From assembly GCF_026191725.2 (NCBI RefSeq), contig NZ_CP120863.1:414001-478000 (forward strand): 64,000 nt of DNA, given 5' to 3'. Below, one piece after another: positions 15,444-28,315 of the stretch. The notes under the pieces are model-generated. The model made no database searches and was not told where the DNA came from. It saw only the letters and a program-made list of their open reading frames with translations. The position numbers and the translations under genes were made by a program. The stretch's first letter is position 1; each line of letters begins with the position of its first letter. The stretch is from Roseibium porphyridii (GTDB lineage Bacteria > Pseudomonadota > Alphaproteobacteria > Rhizobiales > Stappiaceae).

Positions 15444-16288
15444 CCGTTCACTCCGAGGTCTTCTAGAACGATGGTCCGCAGAGCGTCGTCGACTTCCGGC
15501 CGCACCCCGAACCAACGTTCAAAGCCCGGGACGGCCTGATGCAACAGCATGCCCAGTCCGTCGACGGTTGGGTTGCCGCGCTCCGCAGCTCTTTTCAGGA
15601 GGTCGGTTTTCAACGGGACATAAACAATGTCGGTGACAAGCGCCGACTTTGGCAATGGGGTCAGGTCGATTTCAAGCACTGGCTTACCTGTCATTCCCAA
15701 TGACGTTGTGTTAACAAGAACATCTGCTTTTCCAAGCAATTTCCCCAGGCTATTCCAATCATGGGCGATTGTTTTGGAACCAAACTCACCGGCAATTGTC
15801 CTGGCTTTTTCCAGTGTTCTGTTGACGATATGCACATGTGTGAAATTTCGAGACAAAAGAGCCCAGACTATGGCTCTGGCAGCTCCGCCAGCTCCCAAAA
15901 CAACAGCCGATTCACGTGAAACGTCCCATTCAGGTGCCAATTGGTCCAGATTTCCCAAGAATCCCAGCCCATCGGTGTTGGATCCGCAAAGACGCCCGTT
16001 CGCATCGAGCCACAATGTGTTTGCAGCTCCCATCGTTTGAGCCGCTTCATCCAACCAGTCGCAAGCACTGGCTGCGACTTCCTTGTGCGGCACTGTTACA
16101 TTTGCTCCAACCAGACCGGAGGCGGCAAAGTCACCGAAGAACGCTTCCGCGGATTCCGGAGCGACATCGATCCGGTCATAAGAACCGGAAAGCCCGTGCT
16201 TCTTCAGCCAGTATCCATGAACTAGGGGAGATCGAGAGTGGGCTACAGGATGTCCCGTTACCGCCGATTTTTTGATTTTTTCACTCAT
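15440..16288 (-). CDS. aroE: Shikimate 5-dehydrogenase
   Basis: NADPH-dependent reduction of 3-dehydroshikimate. 282 residues; catalytic Lys69 in NVTVPHKE and Asp106 in SNTDGLGF, NADP loop LGAGGAA (131-137). Starts inside the end of maf (ATGA overlap) and overlaps coaE by four bases, so the three are translationally linked. Residues 122-127 (DVSRES) are encoded by a parS-type sequence at 15909-15922, so this gene carries a chromosome segregation site. Confidence 0.96.
   Translation of the reverse strand: MSEKIKKSAVTGHPVAHSRSPLVHGYWLKKHGLSGSYDRIDVAPESAEAFFGDFAASGLVGANVTVPHKEVAASACDWLDEAAQTMGAANTLWLDANGRLCGSNTDGLGFLGNLDQLAPEWDVSRESAVVLGAGGAARAIVWALLSRNFTHVHIVNRTLEKARTIAGEFGSKTIAHDWNSLGKLLGKADVLVNTTSLGMTGKPVLEIDLTPLPKSALVTDIVYVPLKTDLLKRAAERGNPTVDGLGMLLHQAVPGFERWFGVRPEVDDALRTIVLEDLGVNG
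15909..15922 (-). promoter_or_regulatory. parS-type ParB-binding site (inside aroE)
   Basis: Plus-strand sequence GATTCACGTGAAAC, 13 of 14 bases of the perfect parS core GTTTCACGTGAAAC. The deviating base creates GATTC (GANTC). It lies about 2 kb left of the origin, the only such site on that side in the window, and is read in aroE as Val-Ser-Arg-Glu. Confidence 0.85.
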
Positions 16289-16878
16289 TTTTCAATAACT
16301 TGCAATTCTCTCAACTGCTCAAGAAGCGGCAACAGAGGCAAGCCCAGAATGGTGAAGTAATCACCTTCGATCTTCTCAAACAATTGCACACCAAGCCCTT
16401 CGAGCTGATAAGCGCCGACACTGGAAAGAACTGCATCGCCTGCGTTCGCAAGATAATGCCCTACAAATGCCGGGCTGAGGGTGCGCATCGTCAGACGCGC
16501 CGTGGACACTCTTCGCCAGATCGCCTCGCCGTTTTTTGACAGGACGACTGCTGAATGAAGTTCATGAGTTTTGCCGGAAAATTCCAGAAGTTGGCGTCGA
16601 GCCGCTTCCATATCATCGGGTTTGGTTCGACGCTGACCTTCAAAAGCCAGGATCTGATCTGCTCCAATCACGAGATCACCGGAACGGCGCGCACTGACAT
16701 TCTCCGCTTTGGCCTCTGCGAGAACACTTGCCAAGTCTTCCGGTGGAAATTCGGCTTTTAGCAGGGGCGCTTCAACTGCCCGCTCATCGACGTCGGACGG
16801 ATCAACTTCGATCGTCAGTCCGGCATTTTCCAGAAGCTGTGCGCGGATCCTGCTTCCGCTTGCCAAAACAAGTCCCAT
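16285..16878 (-). CDS. maf: Maf-family nucleoside triphosphate pyrophosphatase
   Basis: House-cleaning hydrolase of non-canonical NTPs. 197 residues from the ATG at 16878, preceded by AGAGGG with 4 nt spacing; a TTG one codon upstream is less likely. Family motifs: LASGSRIRAQLLENAG at the N-terminus (5-20), ADQILAFEGQ, and the SSVGAYQLEGLG segment near the C-terminus. Its stop overlaps the aroE start. Confidence 0.93.
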   Translation of the reverse strand: MGLVLASGSRIRAQLLENAGLTIEVDPSDVDERAVEAPLLKAEFPPEDLASVLAEAKAENVSARRSGDLVIGADQILAFEGQRRTKPDDMEAARRQLLEFSGKTHELHSAVVLSKNGEAIWRRVSTARLTMRTLSPAFVGHYLANAGDAVLSSVGAYQLEGLGVQLFEKIEGDYFTILGLPLLPLLEQLRELQVIEK

Positions 16879-16905
16879 CAATCCCTCTTGAGTGTTCTGT
16901 TCAAT

Positions 16906-17754
16906 TTACACATTTTGCGCATTGGTCTGATCTGACTTGAAGTCCCTGAAAAGGCTCAGGATTTCAGCAGCAGTCTCTTCAACGGACCGGCGCGTGACAT
17001 CGATCAGCGGCCAACTCTGCTCGGAGCAGAGCCGCCGCGTCATAGTGATTTCCTGCGAGATTTCTTTCCGATCAACGTAGGTGTCATTATAACCTTCTGA
17101 ATTTAAAGATAAAACTCGATTTCGCCGAATCTGCTGAATACGTTCAGCGGACGCGATCAGCCCCACGATCATCGGTTTTTCCAATTTTTTGACATGGTCC
17201 GGCAATGGAATTCCCGGAACCAACGGCACGTTGGCGGCCTTGATGCCTCTATTCGCGAGGTAAATGCATGTCGGAGTTTTGGAGGTGCGGGAAATTCCGA
17301 GCAATACGATATCGGCAGATTCCAGATCGTCCCAAATCTGCCCATCGTCATGCATCATTGTGTAGTTGATGGCCTCCATGCGCTTGAAATATTCTGCGTC
17401 CAGTTCGTGCTGGCCTCCGATCCGATGCGTCTGGGTTACATTCAGATAGGATTGAAACACCGCGAAAACCGGATCGAGAATATTTACGAACGGTGCACCG
17501 AGTTCACGGCATTTCTGTTCAAGCCGATTGGCGATCTCTTCATCCACCAAAGTGTACAGAACGATGCCCGGGGCCTTTTCGATTTCGCTGATAACGCGAT
17601 CCAGCTGCTTCTGCGACCGGACCAGAGGATAGACATGTTCTATTTCCTGGACATTTTCGTATTGCACGGTAGCCGCACGCGCTACAGTCATCAGCGTTTC
17701 GCCGGTGGAGTCGGACACGAGATGCAGATGGAAGTAGTGTCTCGACTTATTCAC
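16906..17754 (-). CDS. ppsR: Pyruvate, phosphate dikinase/PEP synthase regulatory protein (DUF299 kinase/pyrophosphorylase)
   Basis: Bifunctional ADP-dependent kinase and Pi-dependent pyrophosphorylase acting on a Thr of pyruvate phosphate dikinase or PEP synthase. 282 residues; the P-loop GISRTSKTP lies at 153-161 and the N-terminal HLHLVSDSTGET (9-20) is family-typical. Start is GTG at 17754 with GGGGAT upstream. It is the first gene left of the origin, transcribed away from it. Whether PPDK or PEP synthase is the partner cannot be judged here. Confidence 0.92.
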   Translation of the reverse strand: MNKSRHYFHLHLVSDSTGETLMTVARAATVQYENVQEIEHVYPLVRSQKQLDRVISEIEKAPGIVLYTLVDEEIANRLEQKCRELGAPFVNILDPVFAVFQSYLNVTQTHRIGGQHELDAEYFKRMEAINYTMMHDDGQIWDDLESADIVLLGISRTSKTPTCIYLANRGIKAANVPLVPGIPLPDHVKKLEKPMIVGLIASAERIQQIRRNRVLSLNSEGYNDTYVDRKEISQEITMTRRLCSEQSWPLIDVTRRSVEETAAEILSLFRDFKSDQTNAQNV

Positions 17755-18179
17755 GGTGTCATCCCCAGGGCTGTTGATCGATTGGGAGTCTTTCTTGCTC
17801 CCCCGTGCCTAGCATGAAGTTTATGCCCGCTCAGCATGATTTATTAACAATGCTTGATCGTGCGGGAACTGATGCCGAAACGGTTGTTGATAGAAGTGGA
17901 TTCACAAAGGCGCTGTGACATATCGACAGATTGTCCACCAGTGCCCAATTTCTTAACGAAAGGTAAACAAACCGACAAGTGACTGTAATTATGCAAGTAA
18001 TCCTGTTATCGACTCCTGGGGAGAGATTCAGCTGCACAGACGGCCTGGTTTTTCCCGGACAGAAATTCATGCGTAAGGATTGTGGATAGAAAATGATCCC
18101 GGTAATCCACGCACAAACTAAAAAAACAGATTCAAATTAAGAATCTTATTTGATTTGAAATGTGGGAAAGGCCAAGCGT
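17755..18179. other. oriC: Chromosomal replication origin oriC (ppsR-hemE intergenic region)
   Basis: 425 bp between divergent ppsR and hemE, the position known for Caulobacter Cori and many other alphaproteobacteria. Degenerate DnaA boxes against TTATCCACA: CTATCCACA (minus, 18081-18089, 8/9), TAATCCACG (18103-18111, 7/9), TTATCGACT (18006-18014, 7/9), TTGTCCACC (17931-17939, 7/9). An AT-rich stretch at about 18116-18161 next to hemE is a candidate unwinding element. Six GANTC sites (17786, 17899, 18011, 18025, 18129, 18141) and one near-match to the CtrA box (TTAA-N7-TAAAC, 17953-17968) are present. Genes on both sides point away. The functional claim is inferred from position and composition. 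Confidence 0.85.
17953..17968 (+). promoter_or_regulatory. CtrA-like box in oriC
   Basis: TTAA-CGAAAGG-TAAAC, one base from the CtrA consensus TTAA-N7-TTAAC. In Caulobacter CtrA bound at the origin represses initiation. Single imperfect site, so tentative. Confidence 0.35.
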
Positions 18180-19208
18180 ATGAAATCCCAGGACAGAGCC
18201 GTGATGCGGGTTCTTGCAGGAGAAAAACTCTGGCCACCTCCCATCTGGATGATGAGACAGGCAGGACGTTACCTTCCCGAGTACAGGAAAGTCAGAGCGA
18301 AGGCCAAAAACTTCCTCGATTTCTGCTACTCTCCGGATCTTGCGACTGAGGTCACCCTCCAGCCGATACGCCGGTATGGTTTTGATGCGAGCATTCTGTT
18401 TTCGGACATCTTCGTCGTACCGGATGCAATCGGGTATCCGGTTCGGTTTGAAGAGGGCAGAGGTCCTGTGCTTGAACCTCTCTCATCAGATCTTCTCAAT
18501 CGTTTGGAGCAGGACAAGGCCGAGGATCACCTTAAACCGGTCATAGAGACCGTTTCTCGCCTCAGAGCAGAGCTTCCCGAGGAAACCACCTTGCTGGGCT
18601 TCTGCGGTGCTCCCTGGACGGTTGCTTGCTATTCCGTTGCAGGCCACACCACTCAGGATCAGGTGGCTGCCCGCGTCGGTGCTTATAGAGATCCTGATTT
18701 GATGCAACGGTTCATCGATCAACTGATTGAAGCTTCCATCAGCTATCTCATCCGTCAGCTCGACGCAGGAGCAGATGCCGTTCAGATATTCGATACGTGG
18801 GCGGGCGTGCTGGACGAAGCCGGTTTCAAGCGGTGGTCGATCGAGCCAACAAGACAGATTGTCGAAGGTGTGCGTGCGGTTCGGCCGGATGCAAAGATCA
18901 TAGGTTTTCCGAAAGCGTCATCTGCCCGGATGATTGCTTATATCGATGGAACAGGTGTCGATGCCGTCGGATTCGACTGGACAGCTCCCGACCAGGTTGC
19001 GCTCGACGTTCAAAAGCGCGTTCCAATTCAGGGAAATCTCGACCCCATGCGGTTGGTGGCGGGCGGAAAGGCCCTCGAAGACGGTGTTGGCCATGTCTTG
19101 TCTACGTTCGACAAAGGCCCGTTGATTTTCAATCTCGGACATGGCGTGACTCCGGATGCGGATCCGGAAAATGTTGCGCGGATGGTCGAGTTGGTGCGCA
19201 AGGGCTAG
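18180..19208 (+). CDS. hemE: Uroporphyrinogen decarboxylase
   Basis: Converts uroporphyrinogen III to coproporphyrinogen III in haem synthesis. 342 residues from the ATG at 18180, chosen because GGGAAAGG lies 9 nt upstream; a GTG at 18162 would add six residues but removes that spacing. Signature PIWMMRQAGRYLPEYR at 21-36 and catalytic Asp76 in ILFSDIFVV. First gene right of the origin and followed by hemJ after 3 bp. Confidence 0.97.
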   Translation: MKSQDRAVMRVLAGEKLWPPPIWMMRQAGRYLPEYRKVRAKAKNFLDFCYSPDLATEVTLQPIRRYGFDASILFSDIFVVPDAIGYPVRFEEGRGPVLEPLSSDLLNRLEQDKAEDHLKPVIETVSRLRAELPEETTLLGFCGAPWTVACYSVAGHTTQDQVAARVGAYRDPDLMQRFIDQLIEASISYLIRQLDAGADAVQIFDTWAGVLDEAGFKRWSIEPTRQIVEGVRAVRPDAKIIGFPKASSARMIAYIDGTGVDAVGFDWTAPDQVALDVQKRVPIQGNLDPMRLVAGGKALEDGVGHVLSTFDKGPLIFNLGHGVTPDADPENVARMVELVRKG

Positions 19209-19211
19209 TTG

Positions 19212-19640
19212 ATGGATATTTTTCTTTGGGTCAAATCCCTACATGTCATCTCGATCATCGCCTGGATGGCAGGGATGCTTTATCTGCCACGACTGTTCGT
19301 CTACCACGTTGATGCCGAGGTAGGGTCTGTACAGTCCGAGACCTTCAAGGTCATGGAACGCCGGCTCTACAAAGCAATCATCGGTCCTGCGATGGGCGCG
19401 TCCTGGATATTCGGTTTATGGGCAGCGTATGAATTGCAGGCCTGGCAGGACGGCTGGTTTCACGCGAAACTGACACTCGTTATCGCAATGTCTGCGATGC
19501 ACGGTTACCTCGGTGGCTGTGTGCGGAAATTCGCGAATGATGAGAATACAAAATCAGCCCGTTTCTATCGACTTCTCAACGAAGTTCCGACAGTTTTGAT
19601 GATCGGGATTGTTATTCTCGTGATCGTGAAACCATTTTAA
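19212..19640 (+). CDS. hemJ: Protoporphyrinogen IX oxidase, HemJ type
   Basis: Integral membrane protein of 142 residues with four predicted helices. The conserved N-terminal His11 (WVKSLHVISIIAWMAGMLYLPR) and the KLTLVIAMSAMHGYLG segment match HemJ, the oxygen-independent-fold protoporphyrinogen oxidase common in alphaproteobacteria. The adjacent hemE places two haem steps in one operon. A TTG one codon earlier is an alternative start. Confidence 0.9.
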   Translation: MDIFLWVKSLHVISIIAWMAGMLYLPRLFVYHVDAEVGSVQSETFKVMERRLYKAIIGPAMGASWIFGLWAAYELQAWQDGWFHAKLTLVIAMSAMHGYLGGCVRKFANDENTKSARFYRLLNEVPTVLMIGIVILVIVKPF

Positions 19641-19662
19641 GGGTTGCTGAATTCTGCTTTTG

Positions 19663-19694
19663 AACGGCGGTTCGGAAACGGGCCGCCGTTTTGC
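19663..19694 (+). terminator. Intrinsic terminator after hemE-hemJ
   Basis: Stem AACGGCGG (19663-19670) / CCGCCGTT (19683-19690), 12-nt loop, followed by TTGCTTT. Located 22 bp after the hemJ stop. Confidence 0.8.
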
Positions 19695-19790
19695 TTTGCG
19701 GCAGTGCGACATCAGTGCATTTGACCGGCAGATTTGCGGGCTTGCGATTCACTTGAAAACAACGTATCTTCCGCCAACTTCAAAACGGCG

Positions 19791-19901
19791 ATGGTTCGTT
19801 TTATCGCACCGCAGACGCCGTACAATCTGGACACATCTAAACGTCTTTCAGATATCTTCTGGCCGACCCATCTTCCCGGCGCAGAACGACCTTCCAAATA
19901 A
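19791..19901 (+). CDS. Possible 36-residue leader peptide upstream of rho
   Basis: ATG at 19791, stop TAA at 19899-19901, ending 32 bp before the rho start. The peptide begins [18 protein letters not shown] and ends GAERPSK. The ribosome binding site is weak. A candidate promoter TTGCGA-N16-GTATCT lies just upstream. rho genes are autoregulated and E. coli rho has a leader ORF (rhoL), so a translated leader is plausible, but I do not recognise the peptide and the coding call rests on position only. Confidence 0.35.
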
Positions 19902-19933
19902 ATATCCAAAACAACACCAATAACCCCAACTCG

Positions 19934-21199
19934 ATGCGGGAAATGAAACTTAAAGACCTAAAAGAAAAAACACCGACAGAGCTGCTGCAATTTGCTGAAG
20001 AGCTTGAGGTCGAAAACGCCAGCACCATGCGTAAGCAGGAGCTGATGTTCGCCATCCTGAAAAATCTTGCTGCACAGGATGTGGAGATTATCGGCGAAGG
20101 TGTCGTCGAAGTATTGCAGGATGGCTTTGGCTTCCTTCGATCTCCGGACGCAAACTACCTTCCTGGCCCGGACGACATCTATGTCTCGCCATCGCAAATA
20201 CGGCGCTTTTCCTTGCGTACCGGCGATACGGTCGAAGGGCAGATTCGCAGCCCGAAAGAAGGCGAACGTTATTTCGCTCTTTTGAAGGTCAACACGATCA
20301 ACTTCGAAGATCCGGAAAAAGCACGGCACAAAGTCCATTTTGACAATCTGACACCACTTTATCCGGATGAACGTTTCCGGATGGAAATCGAAGATCCGAC
20401 CATCAAAGATCTTTCTTCCAGGGTCATTGACCTTGTGGCTCCTCTCGGCAAGGGCCAACGCGCTCTGATCACTGCACCACCGCGTACCGGTAAGACAGTG
20501 TTCCTGCAGAACATTGCAAAGTCGATTACGAACAATCATCCAGAATGCTATCTCATCGTTCTTTTGATCGATGAGCGTCCGGAAGAAGTAACGGACATGC
20601 AGCGCACGGTGAACGGCGAAGTGGTTTCCTCCACATTCGACGAACCGGCTTCACGTCACGTGCAGGTGGCGGAGATGGTTATCGAGAAGGCGAAACGTCT
20701 GACGGAGCATGGCCGGGATGTTGTTATCCTGCTCGATTCCATCACGCGATTGGGCCGCGCTTACAACACTGTTGTTCCGTCTTCGGGCAAGGTGCTGACG
20801 GGTGGTGTTGATGCGAACGCATTGCAGCGCCCGAAGCGTTTCTTCGGCGCAGCTCGTAATATCGAGGAGGGAGGTTCCCTGACCATCATCGCAACGGCGC
20901 TGATTGACACGGGCAGCCGTATGGATGAAGTCATCTTTGAAGAATTCAAGGGAACGGGTAACTCGGAGATTATTCTTGATCGGAAGATCTCCGACAAACG
21001 TGTCTATCCGTCCATCGACATTCAGCGTTCCGGAACGCGCAAGGAAGAACTTCTTGTGCCGCATGAGCGTTTGAAGAAGACGTTCGTTCTTCGCCGTATT
21101 CTCAATCCGATGGGCACTGTTGATGCAATTGAGTTCCTGCTCGATAAATTGAAGCAAACCAAGTCCAACGACGAGTTCTTCGACAGCATGAACACTTGA
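19934..21199 (+). CDS. rho: Transcription termination factor Rho
   Basis: Hexameric RNA-dependent ATPase/translocase. 421 residues: N-terminal helical domain (1-47), cold-shock-like RNA-binding domain with RNP1 GFGFLR (64-69), Walker A APPRTGKT (181-188), Walker [11 protein letters not shown], and Q/R-loop regions of the motor domain. The start MREMKL is kept because this N-terminus is typical of alphaproteobacterial Rho; an ATG three codons later is possible. The ~240 bp leader ahead of it holds a small ORF, as expected for an autoregulated gene. Confidence 0.97.
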
Positions 21200-21222
21200 T
21201 CCCAAACGGATCGAATTTTATT

Positions 21223-21257
21223 GAAGGGCGCGGTTCCAAAGGGACTGCGCCTTTTAC
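21223..21257 (+). terminator. Intrinsic terminator after rho
   Basis: Imperfect stem of AAGGGCGCGGTTCC and GGGACTGCGCCTTTT around an AAA loop, ending in a T run. 24 bp after the rho stop. Confidence 0.75.
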
Positions 21258-21272
21258 GTTTTGTTAAGCATT

Positions 21273-21286
21273 GTTTCACGTGAATC
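21273..21286 (+). promoter_or_regulatory. parS-type site
   Basis: GTTTCACGTGAATC, 13/14 of the parS core, with GAATC (GANTC) at the right end. Lies between the rho terminator and the GNAT start at 21313. Confidence 0.88.
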
Positions 21287-21312
21287 CACTGACTTTGATT
21301 CGGACCCGTTTC

Positions 21313-21885
21313 ATGACCTCAGACATCTATCTGGAAACTGAAAGACTATTGTTACGTGCGTGGCGGGATGACGATCTGGATCCTTTTGCAGCTCTATGCG
21401 CGGATCCCGAAGTTATGCGGTATTTCCCTGATGTTATGTCGAGGGAGAGATCTGAACTCCTGATTTCGAAATGCCGGGAGAAGCAGGGAAGCGACGGATT
21501 CTGCATGGCACCGATTGAGGTAAAAGATACGGGTGAATTCCTGGGTATGGTGGGCTTGAATCGACCAACCTACGCCGCACCGCTTCCATTCGAACCTTGT
21601 GTTGAAATTGGTTGGCGCTTGAAGGAATCGTCCTGGGGGCACGGATATGCAAGTGAAGCTGCGCGAGCGTGGCTTCGATTCGGCTTTGAAACAATTGGTC
21701 TTGACGAGATCGTTGCCTTTACGATCCCGGACAACCTGCCTTCTCAAAAAGTCATGGAACGGATTGGCATGACCCGCGACGCTGAGGGAGATTTTCTGCA
21801 CCCAAGCTTGCCTGAGGATCATCCGGTAGCTCTTCATGTTCTTTACCGCTTGAGCAAAGACGTCTGGCTGACGCAGGTTCAATAG
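21313..21885 (+). CDS. GNAT family N-acetyltransferase (RimJ/RimL type)
   Basis: 190 residues from the ATG at 21313 (MTSDIYLETERLLLRAWRDDDLDPF), the usual start pattern of this subfamily. The acetyl-CoA loop region is around ESSWGHGYASEAARAWLRFGFE (about 100-121), and the late KVMERIGMTRD segment is typical. The frame could start at 21271, but this would translate through the parS site. The acceptor is unknown. It sits between two parS sites in the origin-proximal region. Confidence 0.85.
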   Translation: MTSDIYLETERLLLRAWRDDDLDPFAALCADPEVMRYFPDVMSRERSELLISKCREKQGSDGFCMAPIEVKDTGEFLGMVGLNRPTYAAPLPFEPCVEIGWRLKESSWGHGYASEAARAWLRFGFETIGLDEIVAFTIPDNLPSQKVMERIGMTRDAEGDFLHPSLPEDHPVALHVLYRLSKDVWLTQVQ

Positions 21886-21905
21886 AAGAACTGTGGGCTT
21901 ACCTG

Positions 21906-21919
21906 GATTCACGTGAAAC
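21906..21919 (-). promoter_or_regulatory. parS-type site
   Basis: Plus strand GATTCACGTGAAAC, 13/14 of the parS core, GANTC at the left end. 20 bp after the GNAT stop. Confidence 0.88.
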
Positions 21920-21951
21920 AGCCTCGCGGCTCAGCCTTGCAACTTCATCCT

Positions 21952-21965
21952 GTTTCACGTGAATC
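21952..21965 (+). promoter_or_regulatory. parS-type site
   Basis: GTTTCACGTGAATC, 13/14 of the parS core, GAATC at the right end; 32 bp beyond the previous site and in the opposite orientation. Confidence 0.88.
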
Positions 21966-22128
21966 CAATGAATTGAATCGGCGACGAACCAACTTTTGAT
22001 CTTTGCGCCGATTGTTCGCGAATTAAGTTCAAAGAGCGATGGCGATCTCTAGGATTTTTTAAAAGCCAAAGGAGCTCGTCGCACTGCTGGAGAGCAGTGT
22101 AGTGTTCGAGGTCTTGAAGGCGGAAATT

Positions 22129-22142
22129 GATTCACGTGAAAC
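22129..22142 (-). promoter_or_regulatory. parS-type site
   Basis: Plus strand GATTCACGTGAAAC, 13/14 of the parS core, GATTC at the left end; 131 bp upstream of mnmE. Confidence 0.88.
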
Positions 22143-22272
22143 AGTCACATGACTAAGACACCCGGTTAGAGCTTTTCGATTCGTCAACGGAACGTATGAC
22201 GACCTGCCTTTCCCTGGAAAAGCAGACTTGATAAAGAGATTTTGGCATCAAACCCTGCTTGGATGAACGCAC

Positions 22273-23622
22273 ATGGCTGACACGATTTTTGCGCTTTCAA
22301 GCGGGGCAGTTCCGTCTGGAGTTGCTGTTATCCGTGTCTCTGGGGCCGGTACACAGGAGATCGTCAGAAGTCTCTGCGGTACGATACCAGAGCCACGTGT
22401 TGCCTCTCTGCTCAAGTTGAGAAACCCGCAATCGGGTGATCTTCTGGATGAGGCCCTGGTCCTCTTCTTCAAGGGTCCGCGCAGTTTTACCGGTGAAGAT
22501 GTTGCAGAACTTCACTGCCATGGGGGAAGGGCGGTGGTTTCCAGTGTCCTCTCCGTACTTGGCCAATTTGAAAACAGCCGTCCTGCTGAAGCTGGTGAAT
22601 TCACACGAAGAGCTTTCGATGCCGGACGTATGGACCTCACTGAAGTTGAGGGACTGGCGGATCTGATTGCGGCTGAAACACAGAGCCAACGTAAACAGGC
22701 AATTCGGCAGATGGGCGGAGCCCTCGGTCGGCTTTATGAAGATTGGCGCAAACGGCTGATACACATGCGAGCAATGATTGAAGCCGACTTCGATTTTGCC
22801 GACGAGGAGGATGTACCGGGCAGCGTAGCTGACCAAGTCTGGGTGGAAGCCTCCGATCTCCATGATGAGATCGCTGATCACTTGCTGAAGTCGAAGAGTG
22901 GTGAGCGTTTGCGATCCGGGTTACAGGTCGTGCTTATGGGTGCACCCAACGCAGGCAAGTCCAGTTTGTTGAATGCCATTGCGGGCCGGGATGTCGCTAT
23001 CGTGACGGAGGAAGCTGGCACCACGAGAGATGTTATAGAAGTGCATCTGGATCTAGCGGGGTATCCGGTCACGCTGGTAGACACTGCCGGATTGCGCGAG
23101 ACCGAAGGAATAGTAGAACGAGAGGGCATTCGCCGTGCCGAGGCAAAGGGCCGCGAAGCGGACCTGATCTTGTGGGCGGTTGAACCGAACGGCGTGTCAA
23201 TGAAGGAAGCGTCGAGTGCGTTGGCAGTTGATCTCGAGGATGGTGTTCCCGTTTGGACGGTCAATACCAAGCAAGATTTTGAGACTCTTCCGGAACAAGA
23301 CTCTTCCGGAATAATCCCAGAAATCTCTTGTTCAACCAAATCTGAAGGCGGTATGACATCACTTTTGGATCACCTTACACGTTTTGCTGCGGAAACGATT
23401 TCTATCGGTGAGTCACCGTTGGCGACACGGGAAAGGCACCGGCACTATCTCACGGAGTGTCTTTCCGGACTGCGCACGGCAGTTGACGCAGACCATCTTC
23501 CGGGAGAACTCAGAGCAGAAGATCTCCGCGGTGCAGCGGATGCGCTTGGCCGGATCACCGGGCGTATTGATGTTGAAGATCTACTGGATGTGATTTTCAG
23601 GGATTTCTGTATCGGGAAATAA
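22273..23622 (+). CDS. mnmE: tRNA uridine 5-carboxymethylaminomethyl modification GTPase MnmE
   Basis: With MnmG it modifies U34 of tRNAs. 449 residues: formyl-tetrahydrofolate-binding N-terminal domain (1-118), helical domain, and an inserted G domain with G1 GAPNAGKSS (223-231), the TTRD switch I segment and DTAG, ending in the essential C-terminal Cys in FCIGK (446-449 CIGK). mnmG lies 301 bp downstream with its own promoter candidate. Confidence 0.97.
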   Translation: MADTIFALSSGAVPSGVAVIRVSGAGTQEIVRSLCGTIPEPRVASLLKLRNPQSGDLLDEALVLFFKGPRSFTGEDVAELHCHGGRAVVSSVLSVLGQFENSRPAEAGEFTRRAFDAGRMDLTEVEGLADLIAAETQSQRKQAIRQMGGALGRLYEDWRKRLIHMRAMIEADFDFADEEDVPGSVADQVWVEASDLHDEIADHLLKSKSGERLRSGLQVVLMGAPNAGKSSLLNAIAGRDVAIVTEEAGTTRDVIEVHLDLAGYPVTLVDTAGLRETEGIVEREGIRRAEAKGREADLILWAVEPNGVSMKEASSALAVDLEDGVPVWTVNTKQDFETLPEQDSSGIIPEISCSTKSEGGMTSLLDHLTRFAAETISIGESPLATRERHRHYLTECLSGLRTAVDADHLPGELRAEDLRGAADALGRITGRIDVEDLLDVIFRDFCIGK

Positions 23623-23625
23623 TTT

Positions 23626-23639
23626 GTTTCACGTGAATC
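23626..23639 (+). promoter_or_regulatory. parS-type site
   Basis: GTTTCACGTGAATC, 13/14 of the parS core, GAATC at the right end; begins 3 bp after the mnmE stop. Confidence 0.88.
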
Positions 23640-23678
23640 AATGTCGGATTTTCCTGAATTGATTCTGAACCGGAATGT

Positions 23679-23692
23679 GTTTCACGTGAATC
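23679..23692 (+). promoter_or_regulatory. parS-type site
   Basis: GTTTCACGTGAATC, 13/14 of the parS core, same orientation as the site 53 bp upstream. Between mnmE and the mnmG promoter. Confidence 0.88.
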
Positions 23693-23757
23693 AGGAAGCA
23701 TTATCCGCGTATCTGAAAGTGAAGTTTCCGCGGTTGGTCTCTCTCATTGATTCCGCT

Positions 23758-23786
23758 TTGACCTACGGGTCGGCCCGCTTTATATA
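23758..23786 (+). promoter_or_regulatory. Sigma-70-type promoter of mnmG-rsmG-parA-parB
   Basis: TTGACC (23758-23763), 17-nt spacer, TATATA (23781-23786): near-consensus housekeeping promoter. It lies 66 bp downstream of a parS site and about 137 bp before mnmG, so ParB spreading could reach it. Confidence 0.7.
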
Positions 23787-23923
23787 AGCGGCAGCGTTGT
23801 GCCGTTCAGTCGGCCTTGTGATAATCTGATGCTGGGCATCGGATGCGGATCCCGAAAATAGAAGATGATGGTTTGGCGGGTGCTTGAACATAGTGGCAGC
23901 CCCGGTCAAGACGGTGAGACTTT

Positions 23924-25813
23924 ATGAGTGACAAGGACCTGACATTTGATGTGGTCGTAGTGGGTGGCGGTCATGCCGGCTGTGAGGCCGCTGCAGCGGC
24001 GGCGCGCACCGGTGCCAAGACGGCACTTGTAACCCATCGGTTCGATACCATTGGGGTGATGTCCTGCAATCCGGCGATTGGTGGATTGGGCAAAGGTCAT
24101 CTGGTCAGAGAAATCGATGCCCTTGATGGATTGATGGGTCGTGTTGCCGACAAGGGTGGGATCCAGTTTCGCATGCTCAACCGGCGGAAGGGTCCTGCGG
24201 TTCGAGGGCCGCGCGCTCAGGCCGACCGCAAGCTCTATCGCGAGGCAATGCAGAAAGAGATTGCCGTCATCGACGGCTTGACGGTCGTTGAGGGAGAAGC
24301 TTTCAAGATCCTCTTCAACGATGATGCTGAGGGTCATGTCGTTTCAGGACTGGAGCTGGCCGACGGTCGTAGCGTTTCGTGCGGCAGGATTGTCTTGACG
24401 AGTGGAACTTTCCTGCGTGGTCTGATCCACATTGGCGATCGCAAGATCCCTGCCGGCAGGTCGGGGGAGGCTCCCGCCCTCGGTTTGTCTGAATCGCTTG
24501 AGCAAATTGGATTTGATCTCGGACGCCTGAAGACAGGAACACCCGCAAGGCTTGATGGACGCACAATCCATTGGGATCGACTTGAAGTCCAACCAGGTGA
24601 TGAAGAGCCGGTTCCGTTTTCAACAATGACCGAAACGATCACGACACCTCAGGTGCCCTGCCATATCACGCGGACGACGCCTGAAACGCATCAGATCATT
24701 CAGGACAATCTCTCGAGATCAGCGATGTATTCCGGTGAGATCAAAGGCCGCGGACCCCGTTACTGTCCCTCAATCGAGGACAAGATCGTTCGGTTTGGGG
24801 AGCGTGACGGTCACCAGATCTTTCTGGAGCCGGAGGGCCTCGATGACCACACGGTCTATCCGAATGGCATTTCCACGTCCTTGCCAGAAGATGTCCAGAT
24901 TGCCTTTTTGAGAACCATTCCTGGTCTTGAAGATGTTGAATACTTCCAGCCGGGATATGCGATTGAATACGACCATGTCGACCCGCGGGAGCTCAGGCCG
25001 ACGCTGGAAGCAAAGAGATGTCAGGGTCTTTATCTTGCCGGTCAGATCAACGGGACGACCGGATATGAAGAAGCTGGAGCTCAAGGCCTGGTGGCCGGCT
25101 TGAATGCGGCATTGGCGGAAGCTGGAAAATCGCCGTTCGTCGTCGATCGCTCTCAGGGCTATATCGGTGTGATGATCGACGATCTGATTACCCGAGGCAT
25201 TTCCGAGCCGTATCGAATGTTTACGTCGCGCGCTGAGTATCGGTTGTCGCTGCGTGCCGATAATGCGGATCAGAGACTGACGCCGCTTGGTCTTGAGGTA
25301 GGTTGTGTTTCTGAAGAACGGCGCCAGGCATTCGAAAGAAAGATGGCGGCCATTGCCGAGGCACGGGCTTTGTTGAAACAGTTGTCTGTGACACCCTCGG
25401 AGGCCCAGAAGAAGGGCTTGCCAGTCAACCAGGATGGTGTGCGTCGGACAGCGTTCGATCTGCTTTCCTATCCGAATGTGACCTACGAGCTTTTGACAGG
25501 CATTTGGCCCGAGCTTTCCGAGATTGACCCAGTGATCACGGAGCAGGTGGCAACAGATGCTCTCTATGCTGTTTATCTCGATCGGCAGATAGCGGACATC
25601 GAGGCACTGAAGCGGGATGAAGCCTTGGCGATCCCGGATGGTTTCGATTACGAAGCAATTATCGGGCTGTCGAACGAAGTGAAGCAGAAGCTGACCGACA
25701 TTCGACCGGCTACATTGGGTCAGGCTTCTCGTATGGATGGGATAACACCGGCAGCCTTGACGCTGATCCTGTCTCATCTCAAGCGGGGCAGTCAGAAGAT
25801 CGGTGCGGCCTGA
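23924..25813 (+). CDS. mnmG: tRNA uridine-5-carboxymethylaminomethyl(34) synthesis enzyme MnmG (GidA)
   Basis: FAD enzyme partner of MnmE. 629 residues, full length. FAD loop [13 protein letters not shown] (11-23), the conserved [15 protein letters not shown] segment and the C-terminal helical MnmE-binding domain (about 550-620). The stop overlaps the rsmG start by one base (TGATG). Classical order mnmE-mnmG-rsmG-parA-parB. Confidence 0.98.
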
Positions 25814-26469
25814 TGGGCCGTCCGATCGTGTTGAACAGCTCTGGACAGGCTGTGCAAAACTATGGGGATGTTTCACGTGAAACGTTGGAACGGCTTCAGA
25901 TCTATGTCGACCTCGTTCTCAAGTGGCAACCCGCACAAAACCTTATTGCTCCGTCGACAATTCCAGACATATGGACACGTCACGTAGCCGACAGTCTTCA
26001 AACCCAGTGGAGTTATCCAGAGGCAAAAACCTGGGTCGATGTCGGCAGCGGTGGCGGGTTTCCCGGTGTGGTCACAGCAATCCTTCTTGCCGAAGATCCG
26101 GGCACTCATGTGCACATGATCGAGAGCAACCAGCGGAAGGCGGCCTTCCTTCGAACGGCACTTCGAGAGACTGGTTCCAACGGAACAGTACATGCTGGCC
26201 GGATCGAATCGGTTGCGAAAGAGTGGCAGCATGGGCCGGTTGATGCTGTTTCCGCGCGCGCCTTGGCGTCCTTGGATTTACTTTTCCAGCTTTCCGAGCC
26301 GTTCACAGCGAAGGGAGCAAAGGCTGTTTTCCACAAAGGTCAGGATTTTCAACGAGAAGTTAACGAAGCCTCTGCCCGTTGGCACTTCGACATGATAGAA
26401 AAGATCAGTCTTGTTGATCCTGAGAGCCGGATGCTTCTTTTCTCAAATATTTCCAACCGGCCGGAGTAG
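25813..26469 (+). CDS. rsmG: 16S rRNA (guanine527-N7)-methyltransferase RsmG (GidB)
   Basis: 218 residues. SAM-binding motif VDVGSGGGFPG (about 75-85) in a Rossmann fold; N-terminal helices carry VSRETLERLQIYVDLVLKWQPAQNLI. Residues 20-24 (VSRET) are encoded by the one perfect parS palindrome in the window. Start ATG overlaps the mnmG stop, so it is translationally coupled, and parA follows after 14 bp. Confidence 0.96.
   Translation: MGRPIVLNSSGQAVQNYGDVSRETLERLQIYVDLVLKWQPAQNLIAPSTIPDIWTRHVADSLQTQWSYPEAKTWVDVGSGGGFPGVVTAILLAEDPGTHVHMIESNQRKAAFLRTALRETGSNGTVHAGRIESVAKEWQHGPVDAVSARALASLDLLFQLSEPFTAKGAKAVFHKGQDFQREVNEASARWHFDMIEKISLVDPESRMLLFSNISNRPE
25870..25883. promoter_or_regulatory. parS site, perfect palindrome (inside rsmG)
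   Basis: GTTTCACGTGAAAC, full match to the parS core and the only one of eight without a GANTC motif. Encodes VSRET near the N-terminus of RsmG. Confidence 0.92.
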
Positions 26470-26483
26470 CCCAGGAAGGTGTT

Positions 26484-27314
26484 GTGGCAATGAGCATGCT
26501 TCCCGAAATGCCGCGTGTGCTTTCGTTGGCAAACCAAAAAGGCGGGGTGGGGAAAACCACCACTGCAATCAATCTCGGTACTGCGCTTGCTGCGATTGGT
26601 GAGAAGGTACTCGTGATTGATCTCGATCCTCAGGGCAACGCCTCGACGGGTCTCGGGATTGAACACCGGGACCGTGGGTTGTCGACTTACGAAATTCTGA
26701 GCGGTGACTGTTCTCTGGCTGAGGCTGTCCGTGAAACCGCGGTGCAACGTCTTTGGGTCGCACCTTCCACCATGGATCTTTTGGGTCTTGAGCTCGAGAT
26801 CGCGTCGACAAGCGATCGAGCATTCCGGTTGCGCGCTGCAATTGAAAGTCTGACCAGGTCAAGGCTGTTTCAGGAAATTGGCTTCACCTACGTGCTGGTC
26901 GATTGTCCGCCTTCACTGAACCTTCTGACGATCAACGCTCTTTCAGCATCTCATTCCATTCTGGTACCTCTGCAATGTGAGTTCTTTGCACTTGAAGGAC
27001 TTAGCCAGTTGCTCAGTACAGTGGAGCAGGTCAAGAGCGCATTGAACGCCGAGCTCAGCATTCATGGTATTGTTCTCACCATGTATGACAGCCGCAACAA
27101 CCTTTCCAATCAGGTTGTTGCCGATGTTCGAGAAACGATGGGCGACGCAGTTTACGAAACCATCATTCCGCGCAATGTCCGCATTTCCGAGGCGCCGTCC
27201 TATGGCAAGCCGGCATTGTTGTACGATTTGAAGTGTGCCGGCAGTCAGGCATATCTGCGGCTCGCTTCCGAGATCATCCAGCGAGAGCGTCAGCTGCGCA
27301 AAGTGGCTGCCTGA
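26484..27314 (+). CDS. parA: Chromosome partitioning ATPase ParA
   Basis: Walker-type ATPase whose gradient on the nucleoid moves ParB-parS complexes. 276 residues from the GTG at 26484 (AGGAAGG about 6 nt upstream); an ATG two codons later is an alternative. Deviant Walker A KGGVGKTTT (19-27) with the signature lysine, Walker A' region LVIDLDPQGNAS and Walker B YVLVDCPPSLN. Co-transcribed with rsmG and parB. Confidence 0.97.
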   Translation: MAMSMLPEMPRVLSLANQKGGVGKTTTAINLGTALAAIGEKVLVIDLDPQGNASTGLGIEHRDRGLSTYEILSGDCSLAEAVRETAVQRLWVAPSTMDLLGLELEIASTSDRAFRLRAAIESLTRSRLFQEIGFTYVLVDCPPSLNLLTINALSASHSILVPLQCEFFALEGLSQLLSTVEQVKSALNAELSIHGIVLTMYDSRNNLSNQVVADVRETMGDAVYETIIPRNVRISEAPSYGKPALLYDLKCAGSQAYLRLASEIIQRERQLRKVAA

Positions 27315-27409: not shown

Positions 27410-28315
27410 ATGGCGGAAAGAGACGGCAAAAACAAGCGTTTGGGCCGAGGATTGGCAGCATTGATCGGCGATTCTGCCCCGGAAGCCACCGCAGCGCCTG
27501 AGAAAATCGTAAGAGATACGCGCAAGGTGCCGATTGAGCATCTGGTTCCGAACCCGCGCAATCCCCGCAAGACCTTCACTGAGAAAGATCTTGCCGATCT
27601 TGCCGAGTCTTTGAAAGCCAAAGGGATAGTTCAGCCAATTCTGGTGCGCCCGGAAGCCGGCAAATCGGAACGGTTCGAGATCATAGCCGGTGAACGTCGG
27701 TGGCGAGCCGCGCAAAGGGCAGGTCTGCATGAAGCGCCCATCATCGTGCGGGATGTCACCGACCAGGAAGCTCTGGAACTGGCAATCATTGAGAATGTTC
27801 AGCGGGCCGACCTAAACCCTATCGAAGAGGCGATGGGATATGAGCAGCTGACCGCGGAGTTCAGTTACAGCCAGGGCGAGCTTGCCAAAGTGATCGGCAA
27901 GAGCCGCAGCCATGTAGCCAATACGATGCGGCTGCTGAAACTGCCGAATTCCGTGAAAGACTATCTTGCGGAGGGCCTGCTCACAGCCGGCCATGCACGC
28001 GCATTGATTACCGTTGATGACCCGGCGGCTCTTGCCGAGTTGATCGTCGAAAAGGGCCTGACGGTCCGCGATGCGGAAAAGATTTCGCAGGATCCGGATG
28101 CCCTTGCCCGATTGAAGGGTGACAAGGCACCGGTCGTGAAGGCTGAAAAGGATGCCGATACGAAGGCGCTGGAAAAGCGTTTGGCTGACACGCTGGGGCT
28201 CAAAGTGACCGTTGGTCATAAACCTGGCAAGGAATCCGGCGACTTGAAAATCAAATACACGTCGCTTGAGCAATTGGATGAGCTGTGCAGGAAACTTGGC
28301 GTCGAAACTCGATAA
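27410..28315 (+). CDS. parB: Chromosome partitioning protein ParB (CTP-dependent parS clamp)
   Basis: Binds parS, loads as a CTP-dependent clamp and spreads along DNA. 301 residues: N-terminal ParA-contacting motif RLGRGLAALIG (10-20), CTPase motif GERRWRA (94-100) and ENVQR (128-132), helix-turn-helix SQGELAKVIGKSRSHVANTMRLLKLP (about 154-179), and a C-terminal dimerisation domain (about 245-301). It is 95 bp after parA. Its cognate sites are the eight parS entries here. Confidence 0.97.
   Translation: MAERDGKNKRLGRGLAALIGDSAPEATAAPEKIVRDTRKVPIEHLVPNPRNPRKTFTEKDLADLAESLKAKGIVQPILVRPEAGKSERFEIIAGERRWRAAQRAGLHEAPIIVRDVTDQEALELAIIENVQRADLNPIEEAMGYEQLTAEFSYSQGELAKVIGKSRSHVANTMRLLKLPNSVKDYLAEGLLTAGHARALITVDDPAALAELIVEKGLTVRDAEKISQDPDALARLKGDKAPVVKAEKDADTKALEKRLADTLGLKVTVGHKPGKESGDLKIKYTSLEQLDELCRKLGVETR

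Follow-up and report, generated by a model that had tools for sequence, protein, structure and literature searches.

Asymmetric parS sites overlapping GANTC near parAB of Roseibium porphyridii and their covariation with a ParB residue in Hyphomicrobiales

The closest described counterparts of the sites reported here are chromosomal parS sites of the 16-bp TGTTNCACGTGAAACA type, which go with ParABS systems. In Bacillus subtilis and Corynebacterium glutamicum, the consensus of such sites likewise has one variable base in one arm (PMC7022226), and the parS cluster of Caulobacter crescentus also lies near the origin, the half GTGAAA being marked as conserved in a figure legend (PMC5815017). Here we describe parS sites in a 64,000-nt stretch of the marine bacterium Roseibium porphyridii (NZ_CP120863.1, 414,001 to 478,000; hereafter the window) that resemble the chromosomal type in their core and in their proximity to parAB and mnmE-mnmG-rsmG. 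They differ from it in that the variable base is base 2, is almost always A and is changed in one arm only, which creates GANTC, the target of the methylase CcrM.

The asymmetric form is defined as one strict half-site plus another half-site with A for T at base 2 (A2). It recurs in the order Hyphomicrobiales (Rhizobiales in GTDB), doubly changed sites are nearly absent, and the form covaries with one position of ParB. On balance, we lean toward the explanation that these are ordinary origin-proximal ParB nucleation sites, recurrent in the order, in which a ParB tolerant at base 2 uses one strict and one A2 half-site.

parS sites around parAB of R. porphyridii

The eight parS coordinates and their letters given in a preliminary description of this DNA are all correct: seven sites read GTTTCACGTGAATC on one strand or the other, and the eighth is the palindrome GTTTCACGTGAAAC. 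Its claim that one shared base change produces GANTC in the seven also held on the letters of the window. A ninth parS-like site with one mismatch, GTTTCACGCGAAAC at 19457, was absent from that description and was found in 2 of the 80 named loci compared below (L046 and L103). All nine sites, each within one mismatch of GTTTCACGTGAAAC, fall within 10 kb and cluster near parAB, as expected of chromosomal parS, and a genome-wide search found no further match within one mismatch elsewhere in the 5.94-Mb genome. At up to two mismatches, the scan of the genome returned 35 sites, versus 27 for a reversed-pattern control. GTTTCACGTGAATC occurs seven times, versus 0.00 expected from dinucleotide shuffles of the window, and of the 42 possible single substitutions in the parS palindrome, only 2 give rise to GANTC. 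The genes of the region run aroE, a PPPase gene, hemE, a UPF0093 gene, rho, a GNAT gene, mnmE, mnmG, rsmG, parA, and parB; six of the nine sites are intergenic, and three are in genes (aroE, the UPF0093 open reading frame [ORF], and rsmG).

15909..15922, minus strand: asymmetric parS inside aroE, GATTC half on the left
19457..19470, unstranded: parS-like site with changed centre (GTTTCACGCGAAAC) inside the UPF0093 ORF
21273..21286, plus strand: asymmetric parS in the gap between rho and the GNAT acetyltransferase gene
21906..21919, minus strand: asymmetric parS in the gap between the GNAT gene and mnmE
21952..21965, plus strand: asymmetric parS in the gap between the GNAT gene and mnmE
22129..22142, minus strand: asymmetric parS upstream of mnmE
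23626..23639, plus strand: asymmetric parS directly 3' of mnmE; orientation at the equivalent place constant in Roseibium loci
23679..23692, plus strand: asymmetric parS in the mnmE-mnmG gap; orientation at the equivalent place constant in Roseibium loci
25870..25883, unstranded: perfectly palindromic parS in the start of rsmG
22273..23622, plus strand: mnmE (NF003661)
23924..25813, plus strand: mnmG/gidA (PF01134)
25813..26469, plus strand: rsmG/gidB (TIGR00138)
26484..27314, plus strand: parA, a ParA/MinD-type ATPase gene adjoining parB
27410..28315, plus strand: parB; residue 156 is Gly, equivalent to Caulobacter ParB residue 163

Two further features of the region were recorded. A block, GATCGATTC ... 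ACCGGAACAT, stands immediately 5' of the second mnmG-proximal parS (window 23640-23692) and, judged by eye, is present with a second GATTC in most of the Roseibium loci inspected (among L046-L077, L102, and L103). The gap between the PPPase gene and hemE (window 17755-18161), which we take by analogy with Caulobacter to be the likely oriC, contains six GANTC and no strict DnaA box TTATCCACA.

The sites could instead be promoter or GcrA elements of mnmE, mnmG, and neighbouring genes, their likeness to parS being secondary. The intergenic position of six of the nine and the block with its second GATTC beside the site at 23679 would suit this explanation. Against it, sites lie within aroE, the UPF0093 ORF, and rsmG, the strict half and the core are as in parS, and the form recurs at many different places; we therefore consider it very improbable.

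Distribution of the asymmetric form in relatives

The order sample consisted of 80 of the 97 Hyphomicrobiales genomes with a ParB other than that of R. porphyridii (98 in all), and the class sample, drawn from 138 genomes of the class Alphaproteobacteria with a ParB, comprised 60 genomes from other orders, 24 of which had a match to the RAMA domain and 36 of which had none. A named set comprised 80 loci around parB from Roseibium, Stappia, Pseudovibrio, Breoghania, Pleomorphomonas-like organisms, Rhizobiaceae, and others. The named set and the order sample share some genomes and each contains close relatives; the regions covered at most 20 kb, some less, so that more distant sites fall outside the counts.

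The named set contained 102 palindromes, and 259 of its 270 one-mismatch sites had the asymmetric form. The order sample had 121 palindromes, and of its 115 one-mismatch sites, 74, in 36 genomes, had the form; 5 more sites carried a GACTC variant, in which GANTC is retained. By both counts the variant position in related genomes is not random, a point on which the proposal of the preliminary description is supported. The variable arms of the order sample, counted for sites in which one half was perfect and the core was present (seven mutated cores gave a background of 0 to 10 hits each), were GTTT (121), GATT (74), GTTC (11), GCTT (6), GACT (5), and ATTT (5), with GTCT (2), CGTT (2), and ACAT (1) rarer. 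Base 2 of the variable arm was thus A in 79 sites (74 GATTC and 5 GACTC), C in 6, and G in none. The Agrobacterium tumefaciens B6 locus (L112) has two asymmetric sites and one palindrome.

In the class sample, palindromes made up 99 of the 114 sites within one mismatch, and the form was found in 2 of the 24 genomes with and 1 of the 36 without a RAMA match. When 241 class genomes were searched for exact matches, 8 had the form, two of which (that of R. porphyridii and G098) belong to the order. In a phylum sample of 299 genomes, the base-2 variants within the order were 54 A (7 from the R. porphyridii genome), 2 C, and 2 G, versus 7 A, 9 C, and 0 G outside it (A versus other variants, P = 5e-5, relatedness ignored). 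Four of the 16 genomes with outside-order hits have them less than 4 kb from parB (G379 with A; G473, G497, and G135 with C), and the remaining hits, far from parB or on another contig, may be due to chance. Within the family of G379 (150 genomes), base 2 was A in two sites and C in six.

Some loci depart from this pattern. No perfect palindrome was present in the region covered in 8 of the 80 order genomes (L138, L165, L167, L173, L203, L206, L212, and L213); six of these have a site with a changed centre, GTTTCATGTGAAAC, and L138 and L173 have GTTCC arms. Downstream of parB, arm variants recur as GTCTC in one family (L138 and L139, at about 15.1 kb) and as GTCCC in Rhizobiaceae (ten loci among L111-L125, at about 17.2 kb).

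With independent variation of the two halves, the expected number of doubly changed sites is 7.7 among the 202 of the order sample and 48.4 among the 368 of the named set; none and one, respectively, were observed (relatedness ignored in both). The near-absence of double changes indicates that A2 is not a free alternative to T2 and that one arm remains strict. In Hyphomonas neptunium, a member of another order, replacing bases 2 and 3 of one arm by CC abolished in vitro binding of ParB (PMC6650430), and one-arm changes at this end can therefore matter.

The site in rsmG is mostly palindromic in the order sample too (53 of 68), and 10 of the 11 GATTC cases there share one orientation; these counts include only sites with one perfect half, the core, and the outer G. 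From codon reading, the favoured orientation costs a change of Thr to Ser and the opposite one Val to Asp, and coding constraint plausibly keeps this parS symmetric. Orientation at homologous places is conserved within Roseibium, so those copies were inherited. A fixed orientation acting as a directional signal was considered and rejected, because orientation is inherited within Roseibium yet mixed across the order.

The conserved orientation at homologous Roseibium places would also suit a single asymmetric ancestral site that was spread by duplication or gene conversion and then inherited. However, within one genome the sites occupy various genes and intergenic gaps and have mixed orientations, and a tree of MnmG requires at least 19 changes of state of the form; copying of this kind is an improbable account of the form.

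Covariation of the form with ParB residue 156

The R. porphyridii ParB is 99% identical to that of Labrenzia sp. THAF82 and matches PDB 6t1f with an E value of 2e-71. It has the specificity residues of a chromosomal ParB, with R166, T172, K177, and G194 aligned to Caulobacter R173, T179, A184, and G201, the four specificity positions reported (PMC7383237). Gln162 of the Caulobacter ParB contacts parS in the structure (PMC7383237), and the 6t1f alignment puts column 156 directly after it, which makes this column Caulobacter residue 163. In a ranking of 301 ParB columns by association with the form (80 order genomes, 300 permutations, relatedness ignored), column 156 was the top one, with a z score of 9.1 versus 5.7 for the next.

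By residue 156, the order genomes with the form were 19 of 19 for Q, 8 of 13 for A, 5 of 8 for N, 2 of 5 for S, 4 of 19 for E, and 1 of 5 for D, with none among those with T (6), G (3), M (1), or K (1). An acidic residue was accompanied by the form in 5 of 24 order genomes, versus 34 of 56 for the remaining residues (P = 0.001); among the 60 genomes of other orders, 40 have Glu and 12 have Asp as residue 156. A quick tree of MnmG from 86 loci (80 from the order sample and 6 named) gave a minimum of 41 changes for residue 156 and 19 for the form. Across 10 independent pairs on this tree, Gln and the form were concordant in 5.9, opposite in 0.0, and without difference in 4.1 (median P = 0.031). 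The ratio of A2 to C2 sites was 72:0 with Q, N, A, or S and 7:6 with other residues (P = 4e-6, the grouping being post hoc), and all six C2 sites of the order sample accompany E, D, T, or G. In both its column association and the behaviour of Gln on the MnmG tree, position 156 covaries with the form as is expected of a ParB specificity variant. The preliminary description had offered as a simple alternative that this ParB prefers the asymmetric form, and that view gains support from one covarying residue. Together, the lineage spread and the covarying column shift the weight of explanation from methylation to ParB.

According to the mechanism that we envisage, many members of the order would have exchanged the acidic residue that is usual in the first helix-turn-helix turn (position 163 in Caulobacter) for a neutral one, and the loss of the acidic side chain would make ParB less strict at base 2. 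A2 would be accepted in one arm, and two A2 arms would bind too weakly. The asymmetric sites, multiplied near the origin (seven here), would then load ParB more weakly or release it faster, and their weaker arm may adjust how the ParB clamp is loaded or released. The overlap with GANTC would be at least partly a by-product that turns the arm into a CcrM substrate, and ParB may shield it. Surface plasmon resonance imaging of the Burkholderia c1 parS indicated that its outer pair and position 5-12 tolerate symmetric change; pair 3-14, which corresponds to base 2 here, is not named among the tolerant positions (PMC5450999).

Several observations, besides the neglect of relatedness in the column ranking, weigh against the ParB explanation. 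Broader splits (acidic or not; Q, N, A, and S or not) were not significant in the tree-aware comparison (median P = 0.125 each), and two C2 sites of the named set with Val or Ala ParBs blur the C2 pattern. Residue 156 is Gly in Roseibium and Val in Pseudovibrio; Gly, Ala, and Val should be unable to select A against C and G through hydrogen bonds, yet in the named Gly group there are 162 GATTC arms and one GATAC arm, with no C2 or G2. None of the three Gly genomes of the order sample has an A2 site. Conversely, among genomes with an acidic ParB, 5 of 24 in the order sample and 3 of 52 in the class sample have A2 sites, and no A2 site was found with the eight nonacidic ParBs outside the order (two of these loci being without any site), so residue 156 is not sufficient.

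Other parts of ParB were examined and rejected as the cause. The recognition helix, KSRSHVAN, is largely invariant across all three groups. Lys177 (Caulobacter 184) gave no separation, the form being present in 27 of the 58 order genomes with this Lys. His155 was seen in two genomes without a RAMA match; of the other three loci with His155, two are palindromic (one also with C2) and one has no site.

A ParB tolerant at base 2 remains the explanation that we prefer. Under it, residue 163, which lies outside the reported specificity positions 173, 179, 184, and 201, seems to have a bearing on the base allowed at base 2 of parS, and this could be tested on dozens of natural sites and on the many changes of state along the tree.

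GANTC, CcrM, and comparison with known systems

The preliminary description tied the form to CcrM. The genome does encode a CcrM orthologue, a single RAMA-domain protein (E value, 8e-22) with an N6_N4_Mtase domain and a near full-length match to the Caulobacter CcrMI of PDB 6pbd (E value, 1e-163); with GANTC within the sites and CcrM encoded in the genome, the arms qualify as CcrM substrates. A RAMA match was found in 100 of 101 order genomes (the exception, G309, is fragmented) and in 104 of 144 class genomes. The form does not accompany CcrM across lineages: it was present in 39 of the 80 order genomes and in 2 of the 24 RAMA-positive genomes of other orders (P = 3e-4). The proposed link holds as far as the presence of CcrM and the nonrandom variant position are concerned; since CcrM is found both in lineages that have the form and in lineages that lack it, and the sampled RAMA genomes of other orders are mostly palindromic, CcrM alone does not explain it.

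GANTC is depleted in the window, with 112 occurrences versus 328 expected. Outside parS, it is near expectation at 15500-24500 (29 versus 34), but the remainder of the window has about 2.7-fold fewer than expected (76 versus 204). Upstream of mnmG, GANTC density was 0.76 of expectation in order genomes with the form and 0.75 in those without (P = 0.79). We rejected the idea that a general GANTC-rich zone around the centromere drives the form, because the zone effect is equal in both groups.

It has also to be asked whether the A2 arm is kept for CcrM, with methylation state altering ParB loading or ParB occupancy keeping the site unmethylated. Such selection would be in line with the near-universal RAMA match in the order, with the alteration of exactly one arm in all sites but one, and with the favouring of A even in loci whose ParB has Gly, Ala, or Val at this position. 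Where an A2 arm had a second change, GANTC was retained in five events and broken in three, versus one and ten at the same two positions of T2 arms (P = 0.04, from small hand-grouped counts that exclude GTTG and GTCC arms and outside-order sites). There is also a precedent for shielding: MucR, another DNA-binding protein, shields GANTC (PMC5172544).

Other evidence speaks against this selection. Besides the scarcity of the form in RAMA-positive genomes of other orders and the equal density of neighbouring GANTC, A2 sites lie less than 4 kb from parB in G108 and G379, two genomes without a RAMA match, in which other GANTC methylases were not searched for. Published depletion of CcrM in A. tumefaciens left the proportion of cells with two ori1 foci about unchanged (about 39% versus 43%; in a second test, 52% versus 58%), in a strain whose own parS letters were not read and whose relatives in our samples bear the form. 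Chromosome segregation was reported to be correct in C. crescentus without CcrM (PMC3973325), again in a strain whose parS letters were not read. Selection for GANTC is accordingly possible but, in our estimation, on the unlikely side.

The choice of A with Gly, Ala, or Val ParBs and the GANTC-keeping second changes nevertheless keep a role for GANTC alive. A dual-code arm would combine it with the ParB change: the change at residue 163 would make the parS arm a CcrM site as well, N6-methylation of this arm, beside the changed residue, would lower or raise ParB loading until remethylation of the sister arms late in the cell cycle, and residue 163 would act as a methyl reader. We regard this combination as rather doubtful. 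To judge from the sequences compared, a CcrM effect on loading, or ParB shielding against CcrM, would be a live but unproven addition to tolerance at base 2; if methylation matters too, a replication clock would be linked to centromere loading.

With regard to the literature, an exact-letter search returned no match to the asymmetric 14-mer GTTTCACGTGAATC, and a GANTC overlap inside chromosomal parS was not found in the excerpts of parS and CcrM papers examined, which does not establish its absence from print. In Caulobacter, GANTCs at the parS locus have served as a control whose methylation extra methylases did not alter (PMC5172544). A natural nonsymmetric site has been described in parS12J of Ralstonia pickettii, to which its ParB was suggested by the authors to have adapted (PMC5450999). 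In contrast to the Roseibium sites, parS12J belongs to a plasmid-type Bsr system, has another core, and was described with no link to CcrM; its tolerated T2A is at base 2 of the 16-mer, which is not the base changed in Roseibium. Control by CcrM and GcrA has been described near repABC, with GANTC noted near the repABC parS (PMC9040568, PMC11514494). In those reports, the repABC GANTC lies beside parS or in promoters, whereas the Roseibium GANTC lies inside the chromosomal ParB half-site.

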